Assembly: GCA_018402765.1 (NCBI GenBank)
Contig: JAGYIE010000003.1
Location: forward strand, 496,001 to 560,000
DNA length: 64,000 nucleotides
Origin: Vicingaceae bacterium
GTDB taxonomy: Bacteria > Bacteroidota > Bacteroidia > Flavobacteriales_E > Vicingaceae
Direction: 5' to 3'
In this document: positions 15,135 to 48,512 of the stretch, in pieces
Layout: each line of letters starts with the position of its first letter
Numbering within the stretch: position 1 is the stretch's first letter
Notes under the pieces: generated by a model
Databases searched by the model: none
Told to the model about the DNA's origin: nothing
The model's input: only the letters and a program-made list of their open reading frames with translations
Program-made: the position numbers and the translations under genes

Positions 15135-17621
15135 ATGAGTCGAATAACCTACTTCGTGGATCTGGTGCTTCCGTTGCCCATTCCAAATTTATATACATAT
15201 AGAGTTCCAAAAGAATGGAATGAGGTATTGGCTATTGGCAAAAGAGTAATTGCTCAATTTGGTAAAGGCACGAAAATGTACACAGCCATTATTCTAAAAA
15301 TTCATGAAATCGCTCCTGCTTATGAGGCGAAGTACATCGAGTCCATTTTAGATGAATCTCCTATAGTAAACAGTTTTCAATTAAAGCTTTGGAAATGGAT
15401 TGGGTCATATTATATGGCCACTCCGGGTGATGTGATGAATGCAGCTTTACCAACGTCTTTAAAATTAGCCAGTGAAACAAAAATATTGCTTCATGCGGAT
15501 TATCGAGAGGTTATGGAGGATCTTTCTGATAACGAGTATTTAATTATAGAAGCACTAGAGATTAGAAATGAATTGAACCTTGCCGAGATGTCAGAAATTT
15601 TAGGCATCAAAAATATTCACGGATATATCAAACGCCTAATTGAGAAAAAAGCGATAGTCGTGGAGGAAGAATTAAAACGACGCTATAAACCCAAGATGGA
15701 AAGCTATGTTCAGTTAACTGAAGATGCAGATCACGAAGACCGCTTGAAAGATATATTTGATAAGTTGGGCAGAGCTCCCAAACAACTAGAATTGTTAATG
15801 GGGTTTATCCAATTAAACCAGCGCTATAGCTCACAACCAAAGCGAGTAAAAAAGATAGATTTACAAAAGGCGGTAAATTCAACTGCTGCCGGGGTTAATT
15901 CTTTGGTTAAAAAAGGAATTTTCGAAATCTATGAAGAAGAAGTAAATCGAATCAATATTGATGAGTTGGGTTTTAAGGATTTGTTTACCCTCAACGAGTA
16001 TCAAGAAATTGCTTACCAAGAAATAAAAACACATTTTAAAAACGATAAAGTTACTTTACTCCATGGAGTTACTTCTTCAGGAAAGACCGAAATATTTATT
16101 CGGCTAATTGAAGAGCAAATAGCTCTTGGCAAGCAAGTACTTTATTTGTTACCTGAAATAGCACTAACTGCTCAAATAGTAGGCAGATTACGCAAAGTTT
16201 TTGGCGATAAAGTAGGAGTTTATCACTCTAAATATAATGAGAACGAGCGGGTAGAGGTATGGAATGAGGTGTTAAATTTTAAAAGTAATACCGCCGACCA
16301 TCGTTTTCAGATTATTTTAGGTGCTCGTTCGGCCTTGTTTTTGCCTTACAGTGATCTAGGTTTGATCATTGTAGATGAAGAGCATGAGTCTACTTTTAAG
16401 CAATACGACCCGGCGCCGCGCTATCAAGCCAGAGATGCATCTATCGTATTGGCGCAACTGCACAAGGCAAATGTTTTGTTAGGATCTGCCACGCCTTCTA
16501 TAGAAAGCTATCAAAACGCAAAAGAAGGAAAATTTGGTTTAGTAGAACTGTTTAAGCGCCATGGAAATGTGCAAATGCCAGAGATTTTATGCGCTGATAT
16601 AAAAGAAGCTACACGAAAAAAGAAGATGAAGTCGCTTTTTTCGCCTTTACTTTTTGAAGAAATGGAGCTTGCTTTGGAGAATAAAGAACAGATTATTCTT
16701 TTTCAAAATCGAAGAGGGTATTCTCCAATTATGATTTGTGAGACTTGTGGACATACAGCAGGCTGCAAAAATTGCGACGTGGGGTTAACCTATCATAAAT
16801 ACAAAAATGTATTAAACTGCCACTATTGTGGCTATTATGTTCCAATGCCTAAAGTATGTCCTGCTTGCGGCGATTCGGCTATAAAAGTAAAAGGGTTTGG
16901 TACAGAAAAAATAGAGGAGGAGCTAGGTATTTTGTTTCCTGATGCAAAAGTTGCCCGTATGGATTTAGATACGACGAGGGCGAAGAATGCCTATCATACT
17001 ATAATTAGCCAGTTTGAAAATTATGAAGTAGATATTTTAGTTGGTACTCAAATGGTTACGAAAGGGTTGGATTTTAGTAATGTAAGTTTGGTTGGGGTTT
17101 TAAATGCGGATAATATGCTCCATTTTCCTGATTTTCGATCGTATGAGCGCAGTTATCAGTTGATGTCGCAAGTAGCCGGAAGAGCAGGTAGAAAAAATAA
17201 AAGAGGCAAAGTGATTATTCAGTCCTACAATCCTGATCACCAAATAATACGCAACGTAATCGATAATGATTACACAACGATGTTTACGAATGAAATTATT
17301 GATCGTCGAAACTTTAAATATCCTCCATTTTATCGATTGATTCAAGTTACCTTAAGGCATAGAGAATTAGCAGCTGTAAACCGAGCGTCTGACTACTTTG
17401 CAAGAGATATGAAGGCTGTGTTTGGTAATCGTGTTTTAGGTCCTGAATTCCCTGGTATCGCTAAAATTCGAAACAGTTATCACAAACAAATTATTCTAAA
17501 GATCGAGAAGAAGGCTTCTATAAATACAGCAAAAGAGCATCTAAGAACTATCTATACCAATGCAATTAATTTGCCTGAATTTAAAGGAGTGCGGGTGATG
17601 TTTGATGTAGATCCTTACTAA
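15135..17621 (+). CDS. priA: Primosomal protein N', replication restart helicase
   Basis: PriA is a 3'-5' DNA helicase that recognises stalled forks and reloads the replisome. The 828-residue length is normal. The N-terminal 3'-DNA-binding domain covers about 1-110. The helicase has Walker A GVTSSGKTE (around 316) and the motif II box DEEH (around 413). Two zinc sites are formed by CETCGH, CKNCD, CHYCGY and CPACGD (around 535-580), and motif VI is QVAGRAGR. It starts at the base after the pfkA stop and is probably co-transcribed. It is followed by a repeat array. Confidence 0.96.
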   Translation: MSRITYFVDLVLPLPIPNLYTYRVPKEWNEVLAIGKRVIAQFGKGTKMYTAIILKIHEIAPAYEAKYIESILDESPIVNSFQLKLWKWIGSYYMATPGDVMNAALPTSLKLASETKILLHADYREVMEDLSDNEYLIIEALEIRNELNLAEMSEILGIKNIHGYIKRLIEKKAIVVEEELKRRYKPKMESYVQLTEDADHEDRLKDIFDKLGRAPKQLELLMGFIQLNQRYSSQPKRVKKIDLQKAVNSTAAGVNSLVKKGIFEIYEEEVNRINIDELGFKDLFTLNEYQEIAYQEIKTHFKNDKVTLLHGVTSSGKTEIFIRLIEEQIALGKQVLYLLPEIALTAQIVGRLRKVFGDKVGVYHSKYNENERVEVWNEVLNFKSNTADHRFQIILGARSALFLPYSDLGLIIVDEEHESTFKQYDPAPRYQARDASIVLAQLHKANVLLGSATPSIESYQNAKEGKFGLVELFKRHGNVQMPEILCADIKEATRKKKMKSLFSPLLFEEMELALENKEQIILFQNRRGYSPIMICETCGHTAGCKNCDVGLTYHKYKNVLNCHYCGYYVPMPKVCPACGDSAIKVKGFGTEKIEEELGILFPDAKVARMDLDTTRAKNAYHTIISQFENYEVDILVGTQMVTKGLDFSNVSLVGVLNADNMLHFPDFRSYERSYQLMSQVAGRAGRKNKRGKVIIQSYNPDHQIIRNVIDNDYTTMFTNEIIDRRNFKYPPFYRLIQVTLRHRELAAVNRASDYFARDMKAVFGNRVLGPEFPGIAKIRNSYHKQIILKIEKKASINTAKEHLRTIYTNAINLPEFKGVRVMFDVDPY

Positions 17622-17735
17622 TTATAAAATTGCTCCGCAATGTTTACTAATTGTTAATTGCTAATTGTTAATTATAAAATTGCTCCGCAATATTTACTAA
17701 TTGTTAATTGTGAATTATAAAATTGCTCCGCAATT
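17620..17735. repeat. Three tandem copies of an AT-rich repeat with a TTGCTCCGCAA core
   Basis: Units with AATTATAAAATTGCTCCGCAA occur at 17620-17641, 17670-17691 and 17713-17734. They are separated by variants of TTGTTAATTG. The core TTGCTCCGCAA is nearly palindromic. The array begins at the end of priA and is the left border of the S23 gene segment. Confidence 0.85.
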
Positions 17736-17742
17736 GTTTTAT

Positions 17743-17837
17743 TTGTTGATGGTTAATTATGGAGTTGCTCCGCAATTCTTCTTAAAAGAATTTTGCGAAG
17801 AAAAAATTCAATTAACCATTAACAATTCACAATTAAG
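17743..17837. repeat. Palindromic interspersed repeat, copy A
   Basis: An arm with GGAGTTGCTCCGCAATTCTT is followed by AAAAG and the complementary AATTTTGCGAAGAAAAAATT. Flanking GGTTAATTA and TTAACCATTAACAATTCACA pieces are present. The same hairpin core recurs at 18300-18385 and, on the opposite strand, at 26310-26410. Confidence 0.8.
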
Positions 17838-17872
17838 TTGATTGGCGGCAGCCAACAACAATTAAATATTCT

Positions 17873-18226
17873 TTAAATTACTTTTTTTGAGCTTTTAATT
17901 ATGGAGGTTAGTAATTTTAATAATTCTACAGCATCTCTTTTCAGTGTTATAAATTCTTCCGTTACCAAGTATTCGGTCGCATTTAATAATTCAAGCCAGT
18001 AGATTGTTTCATTGCATTCTTTTTGAGCAATGGCAAGTTTATGGATAAAGTCTTTTCTACTTTCCGCATGTTCAGCTTCTCTATATAAAGCGCCTACTGC
18101 GGTGCCCGACCTCGTTAGTTGCTTACTCATAATAAATTCATGCTGTTTAGTCACTAAAACTTTACATGTATTTACAATTCTAATCGCAAAGTGAAAGCTT
18201 TTGGTCTTTATAACATTCTCTTTCAT
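17873..18226 (-). CDS. Four-helix-bundle protein (S23/IVP, bAvd-like)
   Basis: This 117-residue, all-helical protein belongs to the family first seen inside 23S rRNA intervening sequences and related to the accessory protein of diversity-generating retroelements. Diagnostic segments are KSFHFAIRIV, LTRSGTAVGALYREAEHAES (residues 37-56), and AIAQKECNETIYWLELL (around 66-82). The biochemical function is unknown; no reverse transcriptase or template repeat is nearby. Palindromic repeats lie on both sides, so the gene plus repeats look like a discrete unit inserted between priA and fabD. The family call is firm, mobility is inferred. Confidence 0.85.
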   Translation of the reverse strand: MKENVIKTKSFHFAIRIVNTCKVLVTKQHEFIMSKQLTRSGTAVGALYREAEHAESRKDFIHKLAIAQKECNETIYWLELLNATEYLVTEEFITLKRDAVELLKLLTSIIKSSKKVI

Positions 18227-18254
18227 AGACCTTCAAGATGCAAAACTTTTTTAT

Positions 18255-18390
18255 TATTAGCAAATGCTAATTGCTCCGCAATGTTTTTTAATTGTGAATT
18301 ATCAATTGTGAATTATAAAATTGCTCCACAATTCCTCTTTTAAGAATTTTGCGGAGCAAAATGGCATTAACAATTAACAATTATCATGAG
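18255..18390. repeat. Palindromic interspersed repeat, copy B, with a short leading unit
   Basis: A short unit with CTAATTGCTCCGCAATG at 18267-18283 is followed by a fuller copy. That copy reads AATTATAAAATTGCTCCACAA, then CCTCTTTTAAG and AATTTTGCGGAGCAAAATG, and forms a long hairpin. TTAACAATTAACAATTATC follows. It is the right border of the S23 gene segment and ends just before the fabD stop. Confidence 0.85.
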
Positions 18391-18405
18391 TAATTAACCA
18401 TTAAA

Positions 18406-19287
18406 TTATATTTCCGCAGAAGCCGTTGGCATAGCTCGATCTACTTTCTTTACTAAGCCTTGTAATACTTTGCCTGGGCCCACCTCTATGAATTCGCTAG
18501 CTCCGTCAGCTATCATTTGTTGCATAATCTGAGTCCACTTAACCGCACCAGTTAGTTGGTTGACTAAATTTGTTTTAATTTCAGTAGGATCTGTAACGCC
18601 TTTTGCCACCACATTTTGGTACACAGGACAAATTGGAGTTGTAAGCTCCGTTGCTTTAATAGCTGCTTCCAATTCCGCTCTTGCAGGCTCCATTAGTGGG
18701 GAGTGAAATGCACCTCCTACAGGTAGTATAAGGGCTCTTTTGGCTCCTGCTTCTTTTAATGCTTCGCATGCTTTTTCTACTGCTTCTACTGAACCCGAAA
18801 TTACCAATTGACCAGGGCAGTTGTAATTTGCCGGAACGACAATACCGTCAATTTCTCCACAAATTCGTTCCACATCAGCATCTTCCATTCCAAGTACAGC
18901 TGCCATAGTTGATGGTTCAGCTTCGCACGCTTTTTGCATCGCATTTGCTCTAGCGGCTACTAATTTTAATCCATCTTCAAACTTCATTGCACCTGCAGCA
19001 ACTAATGCTGAAAATTCTCCTAATGAGTGTCCTGCAGTCATGTCAGGCTTATAGCTATCACCTAAAACTTTTGCTAGGATTACAGAGTGTAAAAATATTG
19101 CAGGTTGTGTTACATTCGTTTGTTTTAGTTGTTCATCAGTGCCTTCGAACATAATTTCAGTGATATTAAATCCTAAAATTTCGTTTGCTTGATGAAATAA
19201 TTTCTTCGCCTCTTCTGATTGCTCATAAAGGTCTTTTCCCATTCCTGAAAATTGCGCCCCTTGTCCAGGGAATACATATGCTTTCAT
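18406..19287 (-). CDS. fabD: Malonyl-CoA:ACP transacylase
   Basis: FabD transfers the malonyl group from CoA to acyl carrier protein to start fatty acid elongation. The 293-residue length fits. Visible motifs are FPGQGAQFSGM (residues 6-16), the nucleophile elbow GHSLGE (serine around 92), an arginine in VAARANAM, and the histidine in GGAFHSPLM (around 199). The gene is monocistronic on the minus strand, with the terminator of the neighbouring BI-1 gene upstream. Confidence 0.95.
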   Translation of the reverse strand: MKAYVFPGQGAQFSGMGKDLYEQSEEAKKLFHQANEILGFNITEIMFEGTDEQLKQTNVTQPAIFLHSVILAKVLGDSYKPDMTAGHSLGEFSALVAAGAMKFEDGLKLVAARANAMQKACEAEPSTMAAVLGMEDADVERICGEIDGIVVPANYNCPGQLVISGSVEAVEKACEALKEAGAKRALILPVGGAFHSPLMEPARAELEAAIKATELTTPICPVYQNVVAKGVTDPTEIKTNLVNQLTGAVKWTQIMQQMIADGASEFIEVGPGKVLQGLVKKVDRAMPTASAEI

Positions 19288-19320
19288 ATCCTTCTGTTTT
19301 ATTTACTACTGCAAAATAAA

Positions 19321-19351
19321 AAAAGATTGGAACAATGAAGCTCCAATCTTT
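19321..19351 (-). terminator. Intrinsic terminator of the BI-1 gene
   Basis: Arms AAAAGATTGGA and TCCAATCTTT enclose a 10-base loop. On the minus strand the hairpin is followed by a run of T. It lies between the BI-1 stop and the fabD start and separates the two transcripts. Confidence 0.8.
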
Positions 19352-19375
19352 CCAAGTATTTTTTATTTTTTTTGA

Positions 19376-20110
19376 TTATTTACGGTCGCCTAAGAAACGA
19401 AGTAAGAACATAAATAAATTGATAAAGTCGAGGTACAACGTTAATGAACCCATAATCGCCAATTTATTGCTTGACTCTTGCGTGTCATATTCTACGCCAG
19501 AACCGATTCTTTTAAGTTTTTGAACATCATAAGCCGTTAATCCTGTAAAGATTAAAACTCCTGCGATGCTTATAATAAACTCTATTGCTTCACTACCGAT
19601 AAAAAAATTAACTACCATAGCAATAATAATTCCTATTAATGCCATTCTTAAGATACTCCCAAATTTGGTTAAATCTGTATTGGTGGTGTAACCTAGCAGC
19701 GCCATAACTCCAAATGTTCCTGAGCTAATTGCAAAGGTAGATGCGATGGATGATCCCGTGTACGCAAGAAAGATAAAGCTCATGCTCATTCCCATTAAAA
19801 TGGAGAATACGATAAACAGCATCATTAATACAAAGGAGGATAGGCGATTAAATGCCATCGACATACCAAAAACCATTAATAATGGTGCGAACATAACAAC
19901 ATAGCCAAAAATTGACATGCCACCTGTTTCCGGGTTAATTAAATAATTTAATAGTGCCGGGCTAGTACCAAAAGCATAAGCTATAATACCCGTTATAGCT
20001 AGAGCACCTGTCATATATGCAAAAACGTTTGCCATAAACGTTTTTACCATAGTTCCTGCTGGAGCTGTATCTCCTTGAACCATATTGTTGAAATTTCTAA
20101 AGTCTTTCAT
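19376..20110 (-). CDS. Bax inhibitor-1/YccA family membrane protein
   Basis: This 244-residue integral membrane protein has seven predicted helices from about residue 27 to the C-terminus. The conserved family segments include a C-terminal FTGLTAYDVQKLKR loop (around 190) and a last helix with LTLYLDFINLFMFLLRFLG. Family members act as calcium-leak or stress proteins, and YccA interacts with FtsH in E. coli; neither role can be shown here. It is flanked by terminators on both sides and so is probably a single-gene unit. Confidence 0.88.
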   Translation of the reverse strand: MKDFRNFNNMVQGDTAPAGTMVKTFMANVFAYMTGALAITGIIAYAFGTSPALLNYLINPETGGMSIFGYVVMFAPLLMVFGMSMAFNRLSSFVLMMLFIVFSILMGMSMSFIFLAYTGSSIASTFAISSGTFGVMALLGYTTNTDLTKFGSILRMALIGIIIAMVVNFFIGSEAIEFIISIAGVLIFTGLTAYDVQKLKRIGSGVEYDTQESSNKLAIMGSLTLYLDFINLFMFLLRFLGDRK

Positions 20111-20232
20111 TTTGTTAACTATTTTGATGCTAAATTAATCATTCGATAGCATTTTTTGATTAGTTATTTTTGAGTTAACAAAATTTAAATTTGGTGAGTT
20201 ATTAATCAGTTAACTACTAATTATCTGTCACA

Positions 20233-20266
20233 AAAAAACCTCGAAGGAATTGCTTCGAAGTTTTTA
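20233..20266 (-). terminator. Intrinsic terminator of folE
   Basis: A stem formed by AAAACCTCGAAG and CTTCGAAGTTTT (one mismatch) with a 6-base loop and flanking A and T runs. It lies 20 bases after the folE stop on the minus strand. Confidence 0.75.
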
Positions 20267-20285
20267 AAATTATTTCTGATTTATC

Positions 20286-20909
20286 TTAGTGTAAATTTTT
20301 GCCTATTAACTGGATAAACTCTTTTCGAGTAGTATCTTTCTCAAACTCTCCTGTAAATGAAGAAGTGGTCGTTACGGAATTTTGTTTCTGAATTCCTCTC
20401 ATTTGCATGCACAAATGCTTGGCTTCAATTACTACTGCTACTCCCAATGGGTTAAGCGTTTCTTGAATACAGGTTTTAATCTGATCAGTTAGACGTTCCT
20501 GAACTTGCATCCTTCTAGAAAAGGCATCAGCTACTCGAGGTATTTTACTCAATCCTACTATCCATCCATTTGGGATGTAAGCAATGTGTGCTTTGCCAAA
20601 AAATGGTAGCATATGGTGCTCACACATAGAATAGATCTCAATATCTTTTACAATTACCATATGATTATGATCTTCTTGAAACATAGCAGACTTTAAAATC
20701 TCTGCAGGATCCATGTCATACCCGTGGGTCAAAAAAGACATAGCTTTGGCAACTCGCTCAGGAGTTTTCAATAAGCCCTCTCTATTTACATCTTCTCCTA
20801 ACTCAGAAATAATGTCTGAGTAGTGAGAAGCCATCTTGTTAATTTTTTCGTCGTTGTAATTATCCACTCGTTTATAAGCTTCAGTTTGGTGTTCAAATGA
20901 TGTATCCAT
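20286..20909 (-). CDS. folE: GTP cyclohydrolase I
   Basis: FolE converts GTP to 7,8-dihydroneopterin triphosphate, the entry to folate and other pterins. The 207-residue enzyme has the zinc motif CEHH in [12 protein letters not shown] (around 97-108), then [10 protein letters not shown] and the third zinc ligand in KHLCMQMRG (around 165). The RMQVQERLT segment is also conserved. It lies 27 bases downstream of queD on the same strand, so the two GTP-derived pterin enzymes share a transcript. Confidence 0.96.
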
Positions 20910-20936
20910 TCTTTAATATAAAGTTATCTATTTTGG

Positions 20937-21350
20937 TTACTTGCCAAAATATTCTACATAATTATTTTCTGTTTCTTGAATTTTAATGCTGCATAATTTT
21001 CCGCCTGTAGCGTTGACAGGCTCTTCTAACTGCTCCCAAAATTTTATCGCAATATTTTCAGCAGAAGTCATGACTCCTTTAAAAAATGGTACATCTAAAT
21101 TGAGGTTTTTGTGATCAACATATTTAATTACATGTTCTTTTACAATCTTACCTAGTAGTGATAAATCAATAACATAGCCTGTTTCTTCATCTACTTCTCC
21201 CTCTACAGTCACATAGAGAATGTAGTTATGGCCATGCCAATTTGGATTAGAACACTTACCAAAAACGTCAAAGTTTTTTTCTTGGCTCCATTCTTCTTTC
21301 GCTAATCGATGAGCTGCACTAAACCGCTCTCTTCTGGTTATTCTAATCAT
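20937..21350 (-). CDS. queD: 6-carboxytetrahydropterin synthase (QueD/PTPS family)
   Basis: This 137-residue PTPS-fold enzyme uses dihydroneopterin triphosphate, the product of FolE. Zinc ligands are the histidine in FSAAHRL (around 14) and HGHNY (around 39-43), and the catalytic cysteine sits in FGKCSNPNWHGH. The DHKNLN segment (around 79) carries the catalytic Asp-His pair. The longer insert EEWSQEKNFDVFGKC is usual in Bacteroidota. QueD activity (queuosine precursor) is likely, a pyruvoyl-tetrahydropterin role is the alternative. It precedes folE in one operon. Confidence 0.88.
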   Translation of the reverse strand: MIRITRRERFSAAHRLAKEEWSQEKNFDVFGKCSNPNWHGHNYILYVTVEGEVDEETGYVIDLSLLGKIVKEHVIKYVDHKNLNLDVPFFKGVMTSAENIAIKFWEQLEEPVNATGGKLCSIKIQETENNYVEYFGK

Positions 21351-21375
21351 TATTGTTGCCTAAATATTATCCTTA

Positions 21376-21383
21376 CAAATATA
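21376..21383 (-). promoter_or_regulatory. -7 promoter box of the queD-folE operon
   Basis: The minus strand reads TATATTTG, matching TAnnTTTG, 25 bases upstream of the queD ATG. A TTG at 21399-21401 lies 15 bases further upstream, slightly closer than the usual -33 spacing. Confidence 0.6.
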
Positions 21384-21459
21384 CAATTCAAAGATTAACA
21401 AGGTTTAAAATAAATTGTTGTCATTTTTACAGAATCAAATCATCAGAATGGATTGAATT

Positions 21460-21492
21460 TTGTAAGTAGCAGCAGCATTATTCTTAAATTTG
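21460..21492 (+). promoter_or_regulatory. Promoter of the YwqK-like gene, close to its start codon
   Basis: TTG at 21460-21462 and TAAATTTG at 21485-21492 are 22 bases apart, fitting the Bacteroidota -33/-7 pattern. The expected transcription start (about 21497) is only a few bases before the ATG at 21501, so the mRNA would be almost leaderless and the TTG at 21453 cannot be the start. Confidence 0.55.
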
Positions 21493-21500
21493 TCGTACCA

Positions 21501-22283
21501 ATGAGATATTTAACCACCATAGCCGCAGTAATGTTTTTATTTACTACAAATTCTAGTGCACAAGAGGCAACTCCAATCAACCGAAAGGATAGAAATGGAG
21601 CCAAAACTGGTACGTGGAAATCTTTCTTTGCCGACGGATCTGTGCGATATGTTGGTCAGTTTGACAATGGTCTTCCTGTAGATACTTTTTTTTATTATTT
21701 CCCTACCGGAAAGTTGCAAACGCTAATGTTGCATACTCAACCGAAAACTGCTTATGCTAAAATGTATTACTCCACAGGTGAATTAATGGCTGAGGGTAAA
21801 TACTTTGATCAGAAAAAAGACAGCGTATGGCAAACTTATGGTGCAAATCAATTATTAGTTACCAAAGGAGGGTATATTGCTGGAGCAAAGAATGGCAGAT
21901 GGGAGACCTATTATAAAAATGGAAAACTAGCCGAAGTCGTTTTTTATAAGAATGATATAGAAGTAGATGATTATCGATCGTATTATGATAATGGTAATGT
22001 ATTGGAAGAAACTCAATATGTAAATGGCTTTTTAGAGGGATTGACCACCTTTTATGATGAAAATGGGAATAAATTGCTAAAAGGGATTTATAAGAAGTCA
22101 ATGCGAAATGGAAAGTGGATTTATTATAATTCCAATGGAACGGTAGATAAAATAATAGAATACAAAGACGGCAAATCATTAGATAAAAATTTAAATGTGA
22201 TTGATATTCCTGAGGAGTTAAAAGCAAATAGAAAAGAGTATTTAGAGTTTGATGATATCCGTGGAAAAATAAAGTACGAGTAA
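21501..22283 (+). CDS. Secreted YwqK/MORN-repeat protein
   Basis: This protein of about 260 residues has an N-terminal signal peptide ending near SSAQEA. At least five repeats follow of the MORN/YwqK type, each with a glycine turn and aromatic pair, for example GAKTGTWKSFFADGSVRYVG, NGRWETYYKNGKL and RNGKWIYYNSNG. YwqK is named for a Bacillus toxin-antitoxin locus, but in Bacteroidota such repeats are mostly secreted proteins of unknown role. No toxin partner is visible. The next gene, mnmA, starts 6 bases downstream, so the two are probably co-transcribed. Confidence 0.75.
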   Translation: MRYLTTIAAVMFLFTTNSSAQEATPINRKDRNGAKTGTWKSFFADGSVRYVGQFDNGLPVDTFFYYFPTGKLQTLMLHTQPKTAYAKMYYSTGELMAEGKYFDQKKDSVWQTYGANQLLVTKGGYIAGAKNGRWETYYKNGKLAEVVFYKNDIEVDDYRSYYDNGNVLEETQYVNGFLEGLTTFYDENGNKLLKGIYKKSMRNGKWIYYNSNGTVDKIIEYKDGKSLDKNLNVIDIPEELKANRKEYLEFDDIRGKIKYE

Positions 22284-22288
22284 AAGAG

Positions 22289-23380
22289 ATGAGCAAGAAA
22301 GGAAAAGTATTGGTAGCAATGAGTGGAGGTATAGATAGTTCGATAACGGCACTCTTGCTCCATGAACAAGGATATGAAGTAATTGGGGTAACCATGAAAA
22401 CATGGGACTATGCCAGCTCTGGTGGTAGTTCTAAAACAACAGGTTGCTGTAGTTTAGACGATATCAATGATGCGCGAATCTTAGCAGTTGAGTATGGTTT
22501 TCATCACATGATAATTGATATTAGAGAAGAATTTGGCGATTATATCATCGATAATTTTGTGGGTGAATATATGGCAGGTAGGACACCAAACCCTTGTGTT
22601 TTGTGTAATACACATATTAAGTGGGATGCCTTATTGCGCAGAGCAGATCAGTTAGGGTGTGAGTTTATCGCTACAGGGCATTATGCTAACGTGCGCCAAG
22701 AGAATGGGCGTTATGTAGTTTCTAAAGGTTTAGATGAGAATAAAGATCAGTCCTACGTTCTATGGGGACTAACTCAAAAGGCATTGGCTAGAACGATATT
22801 CCCATTAGGAAAATTTACCAAAAGCGCTATTCGCCAAATGGCTTTAGATCGAGGACATGAAGAATTGGCCAAAAAGTCAGAGAGTTATGAAATTTGTTTT
22901 GTTCCAGATAATGATTATCGTGGTTTTATAAAACGTAAAGTGGATGGCTTAGAGGGAAAAGTTAAAGGTGGAGATTTTATTGATTTACAAGGGAATATTA
23001 TTGGAAAGCATGAAGGATATCCTTTTTATACGATAGGTCAGCGCAAGGGATTGGGAATTGCTGTAGGAGATCCGTTGTATGTTTTGAGAATTAATGCATC
23101 GGACAATACCGTAGTTTTAGGAAATAAAGAAGACTTAAATCGTAAGACGATGAAGGTGAAAAATCCTAACCTACATAAATACGATCGTTTACCCGAAGGC
23201 ACCGAGATTTTGACTAAAATCAGGTACAAGGATTTAGGTGCGATGGCTGAGGTAAAATACCTAGCAGACGATGAATTGGAAGTAGACTTTTTTGCCGAAG
23301 TGCAAGGAATAGCTCCTGGTCAGTCTGCCGTTTTTTATGAAGGTAATGACTTATTAGGTGGTGGATTTATAAGTGAATAG
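22289..23380 (+). CDS. mnmA: tRNA-specific 2-thiouridylase
   Basis: MnmA adds sulfur to U34 of the tRNAs for Lys, Glu and Gln. The PP-loop is AMSGGIDSSITALL (residues 10-23). The first catalytic cysteine is in NPCVLCN (around 106), the second in YEICFVPDNDYRGF (around 206). The 363-residue length is normal. An AAGAG ribosome-binding stretch precedes the ATG. Confidence 0.96.
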   Translation: MSKKGKVLVAMSGGIDSSITALLLHEQGYEVIGVTMKTWDYASSGGSSKTTGCCSLDDINDARILAVEYGFHHMIIDIREEFGDYIIDNFVGEYMAGRTPNPCVLCNTHIKWDALLRRADQLGCEFIATGHYANVRQENGRYVVSKGLDENKDQSYVLWGLTQKALARTIFPLGKFTKSAIRQMALDRGHEELAKKSESYEICFVPDNDYRGFIKRKVDGLEGKVKGGDFIDLQGNIIGKHEGYPFYTIGQRKGLGIAVGDPLYVLRINASDNTVVLGNKEDLNRKTMKVKNPNLHKYDRLPEGTEILTKIRYKDLGAMAEVKYLADDELEVDFFAEVQGIAPGQSAVFYEGNDLLGGGFISE

Positions 23381-23504
23381 GTGATTAAACTATGTAATTA
23401 ATTGTGTAAAAATACTGAAGGTCAGCATTTTAATATTTTACCTATTATTTTTTTATTTATTCAATTTATTTTTTAATTTTAGGCTAAACTAAACTTAAAC
23501 TAAA

Positions 23505-24176
23505 ATGAAAATCAAATTATTATTCGTTGCTGCTATTGCAATTGCAGCATTAAGTTCATGCTCTTCAACTTCTTATTCTCATTCATATCGAATGATTGAA
23601 GAAGGTTTACACAACAAAACTTCAGTTAAAATAGCTGATAATTACGAAGCCGATTTAGACATTAAATTTGATGCGGAAATTAAAGGATCTACTAGCAAAA
23701 CACACAAAAACGAAAAGCTTGCAAAACAAGAAGCTTATTACAATGCTGTTATTAATAATGGTGTTCATGTGTTAATTAACCCAATCTACAAAGTTTCTCA
23801 GATTGGAGAAGATTTTGATTGTGAAGTAGTCGGTTTTGGAGCTAAGTATTCTAACCCTAGAGTTGCAGGTTCAGATGTTTCCAGTGATGATTCTGGTGTT
23901 GAAATAGATAAAAAATTAGCTCAATTAGAGCGATTCTCGAAAATCGAAGGAGTTCAGGCGGGTTTGCGTCAATCATCGTATGCAATAGATACTAGAGAAG
24001 GATGTTGTGGTGATGAGAAAGTCGGCAAATATGGTGACACTCATTTATTGCACGCTACTGATAATAAAAGTTCACTAGTGGATGAATACTATAAATTCAT
24101 TAATAAGGACAATGCTGAAGAAGAAAGTGCAAAGTCTTGCAAAGTTTTAGGCATTTTTAAAGTAAAATGTAAATAA
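23505..24176 (+). CDS. Hypothetical lipoprotein
   Basis: A 223-residue protein with a clear lipoprotein signal (lipobox LSSC, Cys19). The mature part has a segment KIADNYEADLDIKFDAEIKG (residues 42-61), then many lysines and several cysteines near the C-terminus, including GCCGDEK and KVKCK. I do not recognise the family. It is probably monocistronic: an intrinsic terminator follows at 24275-24304. Confidence 0.7.
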   Translation: MKIKLLFVAAIAIAALSSCSSTSYSHSYRMIEEGLHNKTSVKIADNYEADLDIKFDAEIKGSTSKTHKNEKLAKQEAYYNAVINNGVHVLINPIYKVSQIGEDFDCEVVGFGAKYSNPRVAGSDVSSDDSGVEIDKKLAQLERFSKIEGVQAGLRQSSYAIDTREGCCGDEKVGKYGDTHLLHATDNKSSLVDEYYKFINKDNAEEESAKSCKVLGIFKVKCK

Positions 24177-24274
24177 ATCTAATCTTCAAGGCTCCACAAA
24201 CATCTATAAATAGAATGTTTAGTCCATACTTATTTATTCAATTTATGATCGTTTGATTAATTTGTTTTTAATTA

Positions 24275-24304
24275 GGTGTGGGGTGTTATGCCTCACACTT
24301 TTAT
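24275..24304 (+). terminator. Intrinsic terminator of the lipoprotein gene
   Basis: Arms GTGTGGGG and CCTCACAC (one G-U pair in RNA) around a 7-base loop are followed by a T-rich run. An ATG at 24288 lies inside the hairpin, which argues that the following gene starts later, at GTG 24315. Confidence 0.75.
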
Positions 24305-24314
24305 TTTTATTCAC

Positions 24315-25577
24315 GTGAAAGATTTGTCTTCAAAAGTAATTTTAATTTTTCTCATACCTGTAATTAGTTTTGCTCAAAATGAGCCTGAAATAATGCGCAT
24401 TAAGAATCATACTGATTTAATAGTCGATTATTTGCCAAAAAGAACTGAGCTAGAAGAGACTTATCTTAACAATTATTTAAAACCAATTAATCCTATAAAA
24501 AAGCATTCGGATTTAGGTGTATTATCTTCGATCCATAAAGTTAAAGAAGAACAAATCGAACAGTTTATAGCTCAGCGAATAGACTCATCTCAAAAAAAAG
24601 ATATAACCGAAGATGCTATTAAGTTCATTATAGGTCGGACTAGCATTGAAGATAGCTACATCAGTGGATATTATGAAGGCTTTGACATACCATTTAATGA
24701 AAAAATTAATGACGAGATAACTGATATTAGCAAAAATAAAAATTCAGAAATAGAAATACTATTAACTAAAAGAGAGCAACAATTCCTTGCAGAAAAAGCG
24801 TTAATTAATTCTGAAGTTAATGACTATTTGGCTAATACAATTAATTTTAGTAACCAACCTAAAGACCTTAATAGTACTGTTATTTTATCAAACACAAATA
24901 GTTCTGTCAAAGTAGAAAATGAAAATAATTCATTAAAGGACAATCCGTTATTGATAAAGGAAATCAAATCTAAAAGTAATGATTATCTAGTTCAAGAAAA
25001 ACAACTTACTAAAAATCAAATTGAAAAAACTAAAGATATTCCAAAAAAGAAAGAAACTGAGGAAAATTTCGATCAAGTAATTCTAGCTGCTGGAATTGAA
25101 TCAAAAGAAGTGGTAACAAGGAAAGAAGCTACTAATGATGCAATTAAAAATAGACCAATTGAGAAAGAAGAAATTATAACAAAAAAAGAAGAAAACTTGA
25201 TGCTTGAAACTAAGGAGGTTTTTACGGTAGATAAAAATGTTGTTACTTTATCGGAAGCTGAGAAATTAGAATTAGAACGAAGTCGATTATTAAAATTATA
25301 TGGCTCCAAATTTACTAAGACGACTTTTTTAGTGCAGGTTTCTTCATTAAATGAGGATATTCCTGAATGGGAAGTGGCCAATAACCTTGGAATAAAAGAT
25401 CGATTAATAAAATATACGATTAATGGTTCTATTAAATATTTTATAAGTGGGTTTAAGACTTATGAAAAAGCAAGAGAAAAAGTTAACATTTTAAAAAATC
25501 AAGAAATAAATTCATTTATTTTAGTGAAACAAGCGGATGAATTTATATTGCCAAGCTTATTTTTTAAATCGAAGTAA
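24315..25577 (+). CDS. Secreted protein with C-terminal SPOR-like domain
   Basis: With the GTG start at 24315 the protein has 420 residues, opening with a signal peptide (VKDLSSKVILIFLIPVISFAQ, of which the last residues are the cleavage site). A long, charged, lysine- and glutamate-rich middle part follows (about 100-310), probably disordered or coiled. The C-terminal 80 residues (TTFLVQVSSL to SFILVKQADE) have the beta-alpha-beta pattern of SPOR domains, which bind denuded septal peptidoglycan in other bacteria. An ATG at 24288 is possible but lies within a terminator hairpin. The SPOR call is moderately sure; the rest is unrecognised. Confidence 0.6.
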   Translation: MKDLSSKVILIFLIPVISFAQNEPEIMRIKNHTDLIVDYLPKRTELEETYLNNYLKPINPIKKHSDLGVLSSIHKVKEEQIEQFIAQRIDSSQKKDITEDAIKFIIGRTSIEDSYISGYYEGFDIPFNEKINDEITDISKNKNSEIEILLTKREQQFLAEKALINSEVNDYLANTINFSNQPKDLNSTVILSNTNSSVKVENENNSLKDNPLLIKEIKSKSNDYLVQEKQLTKNQIEKTKDIPKKKETEENFDQVILAAGIESKEVVTRKEATNDAIKNRPIEKEEIITKKEENLMLETKEVFTVDKNVVTLSEAEKLELERSRLLKLYGSKFTKTTFLVQVSSLNEDIPEWEVANNLGIKDRLIKYTINGSIKYFISGFKTYEKAREKVNILKNQEINSFILVKQADEFILPSLFFKSK

Positions 25578-25600
25578 TACTTTTTAACTATTCCTTTTTA

Positions 25601-25608
25601 TACCTTTG
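25601..25608 (+). promoter_or_regulatory. -7 promoter box directly before a lipoprotein start
   Basis: TACCTTTG fits TAnnTTTG and ends 4 bases before the ATG at 25613, so transcription would begin at or near the A of the start codon. No TTG element is seen at the usual distance. Confidence 0.45.
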
Positions 25609-25612
25609 ATTA

Positions 25613-26284
25613 ATGTTCAAGGTACTTCGATTACTACCGTTTATATTTTACCTAGTGGCTTGTCAAGAAACAAATGAACCGATTTCACCTGATTTTGGTT
25701 ACGAATATGCTCCACTTAAAGTAGGTAACTATGCTGTATACCAAATAGATTCTATTCATTATGATGACTTTGCTAATACCGTTGATACATTTAGTTATCA
25801 ACTTAAAGAAGTGATTGACTCCGCTTACATCTTGTTAGATGGCCAAGAAGGATTTCGATTAGAACGGTATAGAAGAAATTCCGGTAATTTTAACTGGCGG
25901 ATTATCGATGTTTGGTTTGTGTATAAAACAGCTCAACAGTATATTCGAGTAGAAGAGAATCAGCCAATTGTTAAGTTGGTGTTCCCTGTAGAATTAGAAT
26001 CTCAATGGGATATCAATTCAAAGAATACTCAAAAAACTAACATAGCTGAAATTACTTCCATCACAACATCTGCAAATATCGGTTCTCTAAGCTTTACTAA
26101 TATGGCAACAGTGACAATTACTGATGAACAAAACTTAATAGAGCGAAAATTAAATACTGAACAATACAGTAAAGAAGTTGGCTTAGTATCTCAATACGTT
26201 AAAGATTTAAGAACTCAGGTAACGGGTCAAATTGTAAGAGGAGTGGATTACCGAAAGGAGTTGATTGAATATGGAGTGGAGTAA
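25613..26284 (+). CDS. Hypothetical lipoprotein
   Basis: A 223-residue protein with a lipoprotein signal ending at Cys17 (LVACQE). It has a beta-rich mature part: YAPLKVGNYAVYQIDSI near the N-terminus, then FRLERYRRNSGNFNW and LVFPVELESQWDIN. It is a type of surface or periplasmic lipoprotein common in Bacteroidota, with no assigned function. The gene follows the SPOR-like protein by 35 bases but appears to have its own promoter box. Confidence 0.68.
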   Translation: MFKVLRLLPFIFYLVACQETNEPISPDFGYEYAPLKVGNYAVYQIDSIHYDDFANTVDTFSYQLKEVIDSAYILLDGQEGFRLERYRRNSGNFNWRIIDVWFVYKTAQQYIRVEENQPIVKLVFPVELESQWDINSKNTQKTNIAEITSITTSANIGSLSFTNMATVTITDEQNLIERKLNTEQYSKEVGLVSQYVKDLRTQVTGQIVRGVDYRKELIEYGVE

Positions 26285-26309: not shown

Positions 26310-26410
26310 AATCAATTTAATGGTTAATTGACATTTTGCTCCGCAAAATTCTTAAAAGAGAAATTGCGAATCAATTTTATAATTAACAATTGTTAATTCA
26401 CAATTAGAAG
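26310..26410. repeat. Palindromic interspersed repeat, copy C (inverse orientation)
   Basis: The plus strand has TTGACATTTTGCTCCGCAAAA, TTCTTAAAAGAG and AAATTGCGAATCAATTTTATA, followed by ATTAACAATTGTTAATTC. Its reverse complement matches copy B at 18300-18385 almost base for base in the hairpin core. It lies between two lipoprotein genes with no S23 gene nearby. Confidence 0.8.
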
Positions 26411-26482
26411 AATTACTTAGCAATTCTTACAATTCATAATTATCAATTACATTAGCATTCTAAATCAACAGAAATACATACT

Positions 26483-48198: not shown

Positions 48199-48381
48199 AT
48201 ATGGTATAAATAGCTGTATAAGAATAATATATTTCAATTAATTGAAAATTGAACTTACCATCGTTTTAATCCCACTTGTGTTTTCAATAAGTTTTAGTAA
48301 AACTTTAATTGCACATCAAAAATTTATTCTCTTGTGATGATAGACAATATTATCAACAATAAACAATAGGGCATAAAAAAT

Positions 48382-48476
48382 GGGTAAGCTACTTATATCG
48401 CACCGCTCAACCATATACCCTTGCTTTCTTCCGAACCTGGGGGATTAAACAGGAGCTGGTCGTATAAGACTTACCC
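48382..48476 (-). ncRNA. ffs: Signal recognition particle RNA (4.5S)
   Basis: The minus strand holds about 95 bases that fold into one long hairpin. The ends GGGTAAG and CTTACCC pair, then TCTTATA with TATAAG-like partners. The conserved Ffh-binding domain IV is visible as CCAGGTTCGGAAGAAAGCAAGG, with the GGAA tetraloop and the asymmetric loop AGCA in the expected place. A matched promoter lies just upstream and a T-rich stretch (ATTTTTTATG) follows the 3' end. Exact ends are estimated. It lies between the GH16 relic and the DUF4199 gene, on the opposite strand to both. Confidence 0.9.
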
Positions 48477-48480
48477 GCGG

Positions 48481-48512
48481 CAAAAATAGACATAATCTCA
48501 CGAACACTGCAA
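48481..48512 (-). promoter_or_regulatory. Promoter of the SRP RNA
   Basis: On the minus strand TTG (48510-48512), 21 bases, then TATTTTTG (48481-48488) match the Bacteroidota -33/-7 consensus. The predicted start is about 48476, exactly the first base of the closing stem. Confidence 0.8.

Follow-up and report, generated by a model that had tools for sequence, protein, structure and literature searches.

What is a small gene doing between two blocks of one repeat, when copies of that repeat also stand alone elsewhere in the same genome? The question is raised by a 64,000-nucleotide stretch of DNA from a Vicingaceae bacterium (the window), in which a gene of the S23 family lies between priA and a fabD-type gene. 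S23 genes are small bacterial genes without an established function, encountered until now chiefly as insertions within 23S rRNA. A preliminary description of the window proposed that the gene and the repeat form a unit that spreads, and that the protein might act on the repeat hairpins in the manner of the REP-associated tyrosine transposases (RAYTs) of repetitive extragenic palindromic (REP) elements. We think it probable, on comparative sequence grounds, that the locus holds a single S23 element, by which we mean a minimal mobile unit of DNA composed of an S23 gene and mirror-image arms of heptamer arrays with hairpin cores. Within this explanation, the parts differ in strength. That gene and arms together make up a mobile unit is very likely, whereas direct action of the S23 protein on arm DNA has a nearly even chance. 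The evidence comprises the anatomy of the unit, its generality, the co-variation of arms and protein, its presence and absence at gene junctions, and the occurrence of one unit type in different contexts. The general frame and the arm-protein correlation are the strong results of the analysis. The preliminary description was correct in what it observed and is partly supported in how it interpreted this, but the phenomenon is far wider than the locus it described.

Anatomy of the locus between priA and fabD

The window belongs to a genome of 3.1 Mb in 16 contigs (G000), which was compared with two congeners (G001 and G002) and with further genomes; individual loci carry L numbers, and genome-wide counts derive from pattern and family searches. 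The features of the locus are as follows.

17873-18226, minus strand: S23 (four-helix-bundle) gene, 117 amino acids; PF05635, TIGR02436, solved relative 2rld
17622-17742, plus strand: outer part of the S23 downstream arm, tandem units of heptamer array plus TTGCTCCGCAA core (17630, 17680, 17723)
17743-17836, plus strand: hairpin copy A, heptamer arms inverted around the core at 17765; DNA-fold z -4.2
17837-17868, no strand assigned: second hairpin core adjoining copy A, stem TTGGC/GCCAA at 17842-17855; DNA-fold z -4.4
18262-18300, plus strand: inner part of the S23 upstream arm, a short unit with core at 18271-18281
18301-18405, plus strand: hairpin copy B and array tail, stopping at the fabD 3′ end; DNA-fold z -2.1
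26310-26415, minus strand: copy C, a solo hairpin without S23 in the opposite sense, missing at the matching G001 site; DNA-fold z -2.3
18405-26270, no strand assigned: block inverted in G002 relative to G000 and G001, which are collinear; breakpoints at the S23 locus and copy C
15135-17621, plus strand: priA, left neighbor outside the unit, 3′ end at 17621
18406-19287, minus strand: fabD-type acyl transferase gene, right neighbor outside the unit

The S23 protein scores above the curated cut-offs of PF05635 (85.8 bits versus 33.8; E-value 2.9e-24) and TIGR02436 (98.9 versus 24; E-value 1.9e-28), and its nearest solved structure is 2rld, which has five chains (E-value 3.7e-38). Its profile matches are confined to the S23 family, with no match to a Y1 HUH transposase of the TnpA REP type, and a RAYT-type nuclease acting on the hairpins is therefore not indicated. 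The unit sits between the 3′ ends of priA and fabD, and hence outside any rRNA gene. The flank on one side of the gene is an inverted copy of that on the other (local score 52; shuffles 22.4 +/- 3.2, maximum 38), such that an S23 frame lies within inverted repeats, as in the rRNA intervening sequences.

The layout given earlier, with copies of TTGCTCCGCAA, tandem units and hairpins A and B on the two sides of the gene and a lone copy C in the opposite sense, is reproduced in our analysis. Two features had been overlooked. The AT-rich spacer between the cores is a tandem array with a period of 7 nucleotides (TTAATTG/TTAATGG), and the hairpin cores set into this array are of two kinds, TTGCTCCGCAA and TTGGC-GGCA-GCCAA (17842-17855). 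In the window, TTGCTCCGCAA occurs at 17630, 17680, 17723, 17765, 18271, 18349 (minus strand) and 26336, with a one-mismatch copy at 18321. These eight matches with at most one mismatch compare with a shuffle mean of 0.84, and none of 100 shuffles reached eight. The genome-wide search suggested earlier found nine exact copies in 3.1 Mb, six of them within 250 nucleotides of the S23 gene, and no copy of the reversed string used as a control. The remaining three are copy C, a copy near ispG (L004), and one in L003 (1500-2090; G000:C9:509328), where TTGCTCCGCAA and near matches recur at intervals in apparently repetitive coding sequence and apparently reflect chance.

The palindromes that flank the gene also occur alone, as do those of REP/RAYT systems, with arms lacking S23 at copy C and about ten more sites in the window genome. 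Among the solo arrays of G000, the stems of the second core read TTGGC, TTGAC, TTGCC and TTACC, each perfectly complemented, and these are compensatory changes. Arrays L202, L203, L204 and L209 carry a core of the TTGRC type with such differing but complementary stems (for example TTGAC/GTCAA and TTACC/GGTAA). The only other intact S23 gene of G000 (L002) has a different type of array and adjoins a TTGCTTCGCAA core. A third copy (L230, region of G000:C9:664042), decayed and frame-broken, lies between hmgA and hppD.

A frame common to S23 genes

The preliminary description took TTGCTCCGCAA for the defining repeat. This was not sustained, because at other S23 genes the core is a different one or is missing, and it is the heptamer arms that are found again. 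What S23 genes generally share is two arrays of 7-nucleotide period in inverted orientation, broken up by small hairpins; the TTGCTCCGCAA core is a local detail. The sequence flanking 139 distinct S23 genes has peaks of self-identity at lags 7, 14 and 21 (0.39, 0.37 and 0.36 on the upstream side, with most other lags near 0.29), whereas control genes of the same loci have no lag peak (about 0.29-0.30 at lag 7). The GC skew is +0.31 in the upstream flank, which is G-rich, and -0.16 in the C-rich downstream flank, compared with 0.02-0.03 for controls. When the upstream arm is aligned with the reverse complement of the downstream arm, the median mirror score is 29 within loci, 17 across loci and 17 for same-sense comparisons. 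For 82 of the 139 genes the mirror symmetry exceeds all 15 cross-locus controls, where 8.7 would be expected.

Arrays of period 7 are 13-fold denser within 350 nucleotides of S23 genes than in the rest of 107 loci, so the repeats are not evenly spread, a distribution that would have argued against an association of repeat and gene. For other periods from 5 to 13, the ratio never exceeds 2.4 and arrays are few. The frame is found in Bacteroidota, Gammaproteobacteria, Cyanobacteriota, Spirochaetota and Chloroflexota, and the spread of S23 is wide, with 59 of the 60 genomes around the window genome and 57 of 274 Gammaproteobacteria carrying it. The Gammaproteobacteria genes (n = 29) have a lag 7 identity of 0.42, and 20 of these exceed nine controls (2.9 expected). 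Ten plasmid-borne S23 genes share the frame, from Nostoc ((AATTCGT)n and (AATTCGC)n), Dolichospermum, Euhalothece, Planktothrix (L279, with CCCCAAT arms), Gloeocapsa, Treponema, Chlorohelix and Bernardetia.

Two other approaches were abandoned. A fixed arm of five heptamers (35 bp) that would match a protein pentamer was dropped, given that arms vary widely in length (median 31.5, commonest bin 28-35). Counts of TTAATKG arrays over the 60 genomes said little about S23 in general, because this unit is lineage-specific.

Arms vary with the protein they enclose

We compared pairs of S23 loci whose neighboring genes are not homologous. Arms are shared (score of at least 30) in 2% of pairs with dissimilar proteins, in 47% of pairs at a protein similarity of 0.6-0.7, and in 65-85% above this value. 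The Mantel correlation of arm with protein similarity is 0.40, compared with a maximum of 0.10 in 1000 permutations and with 0.04 for AT-rich control windows 0.7-3 kb away. Base composition was rejected as the source of this correlation, since the partial correlation after accounting for GC difference is still 0.40. Pairs between phyla rise equally, from 1% to 54-78% with shared arms, and different S23 genes in one genome bear different arms.

The ratio of nonsynonymous to synonymous substitution rates for S23 genes compared between sites and genomes is 0.03-0.20. The genes are under purifying selection, and the protein therefore matters to whatever keeps the unit.

Filled and empty junctions

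Comparison of matching junctions in related genomes reveals sites with and without units. Seven of the 30 relatives examined have an S23 unit between sdhA and sdhB (gap of 408-512 nucleotides), and most lack it, with nearly all gaps being 0-12 nucleotides, including in genomes of the same genus. At the junction of hmgA and hppD, about ten genomes have the unit and ten have a clean absence (11-27 nucleotides), while in G023 only the arms and the tail of S23 remain. After priA, G001 has an array but no S23 gene and G002 has no S23 gene. Hence S23 is absent at this junction in both congeners, which excludes the possibility, named earlier as a potential refutation, that the gene is conserved here in relatives without the repeats. 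Filled and empty sites, by which mobile elements are recognized, thus occur at sdhA-sdhB and hmgA-hppD, there within a single family and genus, and at priA. The stop codon of the preceding gene is followed immediately by the unit.

Related units also recur in different contexts, with homology stopping in or near the arms. One suf operon (L118) contains two units that are 84% identical, before and after a cysteine desulfurase-like gene, and their homology ends in the arms. In Bacteroidales, the units of L095, L098, L099 and L103 are 79-91% identical and have entirely different upstream genes; L098 and L103 have a downstream glycosyltransferase gene in common. Where G000 has only the solo array L206, the matching arrays of G001 enclose a 3-kb insert together with an S23 gene, which is 59% identical to the window gene. 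This insert (L134, 3100-6055), missing at the matching G000 site, consists of three tandem paralogous genes of about 290 codons each.

The repeats also appear to mediate or mark rearrangements, because both breakpoints of the G002 inversion coincide with repeat copies. Spread by phages was considered and set aside, as the only phage contigs with a relative were two unannotated fecal ones.

Genomic setting of S23 genes

The neighbors of S23 genes include, in several cases, operons for DISARM-like systems, restriction or cas functions, as well as suf, sdh, hpd, rpsU and rRNA genes. S23 genes in cas and defense loci have been reported previously (PMC3936711, PMC10053308). On an Anabaena cylindrica plasmid (L277, 2024-4115), cas2 and cas1 are separated by an S23 gene on the other strand, and the Planktothrix gene L279 is beside drmD. 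S23 genes at such sites may be mobile units of this kind rather than working parts of the systems that surround them. Caution is warranted before an S23 gene found in a cas, DISARM or metabolic operon is assigned a role there. In the Gammaproteobacteria loci L331, L334, L337, L338, L339 and L343, S23 directly follows the apparent end of the rpsU coding region and directly precedes a tRNA gene.

Discussion

In the mechanism we envisage, the S23 protein, which is a pentamer of four-helix bundles in a crystallized relative, would recognize the arms of its own unit, most probably in the form of extruded or single-stranded hairpin DNA. It might then help host replication or repair enzymes to copy the unit, or the arms alone, with copies going into spacers immediately downstream of stop codons. 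Arms that lack S23, such as copy C and the other solo sites of the window genome, would be non-autonomous copies, and the S23-encoding intervening sequence of 23S rRNA would be an element of this kind at a different location. A broader claim, which we advance tentatively and with less than even weight, is that S23 proteins define an unrecognized class of mobile elements that use no transposase or reverse transcriptase and whose sole gene encodes a pentameric helical protein recognizing its own heptamer arms. These arms would then constitute a good share of the unexplained 7-nucleotide repeats of bacteria, including the short tandemly repeated repetitive (STRR) sequences, TAACTGA and GGGAATC, with the rRNA intervening sequence as a special case.

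Several points weigh against this reading of the S23 element. Neither movement of a unit, nor binding, nor an intermediate has been seen, and we know of no catalytic motif in S23. No target-site duplication was delineated, and the arms blur the ends of the units. The presence and absence of units at junctions could also be explained by loss or exchange of whole operons, and no tree was used to count events. The strict mirror test is failed by about 40% of S23 genes, and at least one locus, the weakest plasmid case (L277 of Anabaena cylindrica), has same-sense arrays. Moreover, several of the loci in the comparisons between phyla come from metagenome-assembled genomes and are possibly mis-binned.

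A rather unlikely alternative is that the arms act in RNA, where pairing within the transcript would allow RNase III to cut the unit harmlessly out of operon mRNAs and rRNA, with S23 as a passenger or RNA binder. Excision by RNase III has been published for the Coxiella intervening sequence (PMC4990558), S23 genes favor co-directional operons more than other genes do (p = 2.6e-5), and the one locus within 23S rRNA and the several between rpsU and a tRNA gene fit this idea. However, selection for RNA pairing predicts that G-U exceeds A-C among arm changes, and the counts are 157 and 167. Because there is no excess of G-U, RNA pairing was rejected as the force that keeps the arms complementary, and the changes speak for complementarity being kept at the level of DNA. 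Action in RNA also leaves the arrival of units at new sites unexplained, but the two readings, in RNA and in DNA, may both apply. Alternatively, the heptamer arrays and hairpins could be an independent repeat family, similar to REP sequences or miniature inverted-repeat transposable elements, in which S23 hitchhikes or settles. The many solo arrays of G000, the G001 array without S23 after priA, and the solo array matching those that frame the 3-kb insert and S23 gene in G001 are all compatible with this. We nevertheless consider it improbable, since arm sequence tracks the lineage of the S23 protein over unrelated loci and phyla and differs between S23 genes of one genome, whereas a host repeat family would follow the genome and not the protein.

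Two further alternatives concern the protein itself. A host function, for example in defense or operon regulation with the arms as regulatory signals, would be in keeping with the purifying selection on S23 and with its location in several DISARM-like, restriction or cas operons (PMC3936711). But the neighbors also include core metabolic genes (suf, sdh, hpd), rpsU and rRNA, and S23 is missing from the matching operon in close relatives, which makes this explanation quite improbable. Spread as a retroelement, with S23 serving a reverse transcriptase in trans as an accessory similar to Avd, is suggested by the distant relation of S23 to the bAvd family (PMC10053308), seen here as a match of L121 to PF22296 that is below the cut-off (E-value 2e-4). 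This must be regarded as highly improbable: no RVT_1 match was found in 43 of 60 genomes, some with 8-12 S23 genes (G010, G005, G007), and the window genome is among these 43, on which ground a reverse transcriptase in trans was rejected.

Viewed as a mobile unit, the S23 element has several known counterparts. In anatomy, it is an S23-encoding rRNA intervening sequence that occupies a different habitat. The intervening sequences of Coxiella and Leptospira 23S rRNA likewise have one S23 gene framed by inverted repeats, and tandem GACAGAT heptamers, variable between strains, precede the S23 start in Coxiella (PMC4990558). The units described here differ in lying between protein genes, in being many per genome with arms that vary by locus, and in having S23 under purifying selection, whereas the S23 gene of Coxiella is decaying. 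Among the scanned loci, only L342 of Gammaproteobacteria is inside 23S rRNA; it is an intervening sequence whose S23 frame is broken, with inverted (AGAAGAC)n heptamers at both ends. By its way of life, the S23 element resembles REP/RAYT units (REPINs) minus the transposase. In both, palindromic repeats stand on either side of a gene present in one or few copies, and further repeats lie alone across the genome. However, S23 is no HUH-type transposase, and S23 arms are heptamer arrays that differ between units of one genome. The accessory protein Avd of diversity-generating retroelements is a distantly related four-helix bundle, pentameric in solved relatives, but those retroelements need a reverse transcriptase, for which the RVT_1 search gave no candidate in G000.

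Tandem arrays of 7 nucleotides in spacers have also been described as cyanobacterial STRR sequences, as TAACTGA in Beggiatoaceae (PMC4679880), and as GGGAATC/GGGGATT in Xanthomonas and Nostoc, often as convergent pairs in Xanthomonas (PMC4692102). In contrast to the arms of S23 units, the repeats in PMC4679880 and PMC4692102 are linked to no protein in those papers. These repeats resemble the arms, and in Planktothrix it is an S23 gene (L279) that stands between CCCCAAT arrays. We propose that S23 units may explain the heptamer repeats of cyanobacteria, Beggiatoaceae and Xanthomonas, with support coming only from the S23 genes on cyanobacterial plasmids. The link between protein and repeat had been expected to be new. 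In literature outside subscription journals and preprints, we found no other paper connecting S23 with heptamer arrays, but the heptamers preceding the S23 frame of the Coxiella intervening sequence were already known (PMC4990558).

The S23 frame would tie several unexplained repeat families to one protein and join three orphan observations, namely the S23 proteins, the spread of rRNA intervening sequences, and the heptamer repeats of cyanobacteria, Beggiatoaceae, Xanthomonas and Bacteroidota. If S23 indeed acts on the arms, then a 115-amino-acid protein without a recognized nuclease would drive one of the smallest mobile units known.

Elsewhere in the window, a small signal recognition particle RNA of the Bacteroidales type (RF04183, 100.7 bits) at 48378-48483 on the minus strand is the sole Rfam match.

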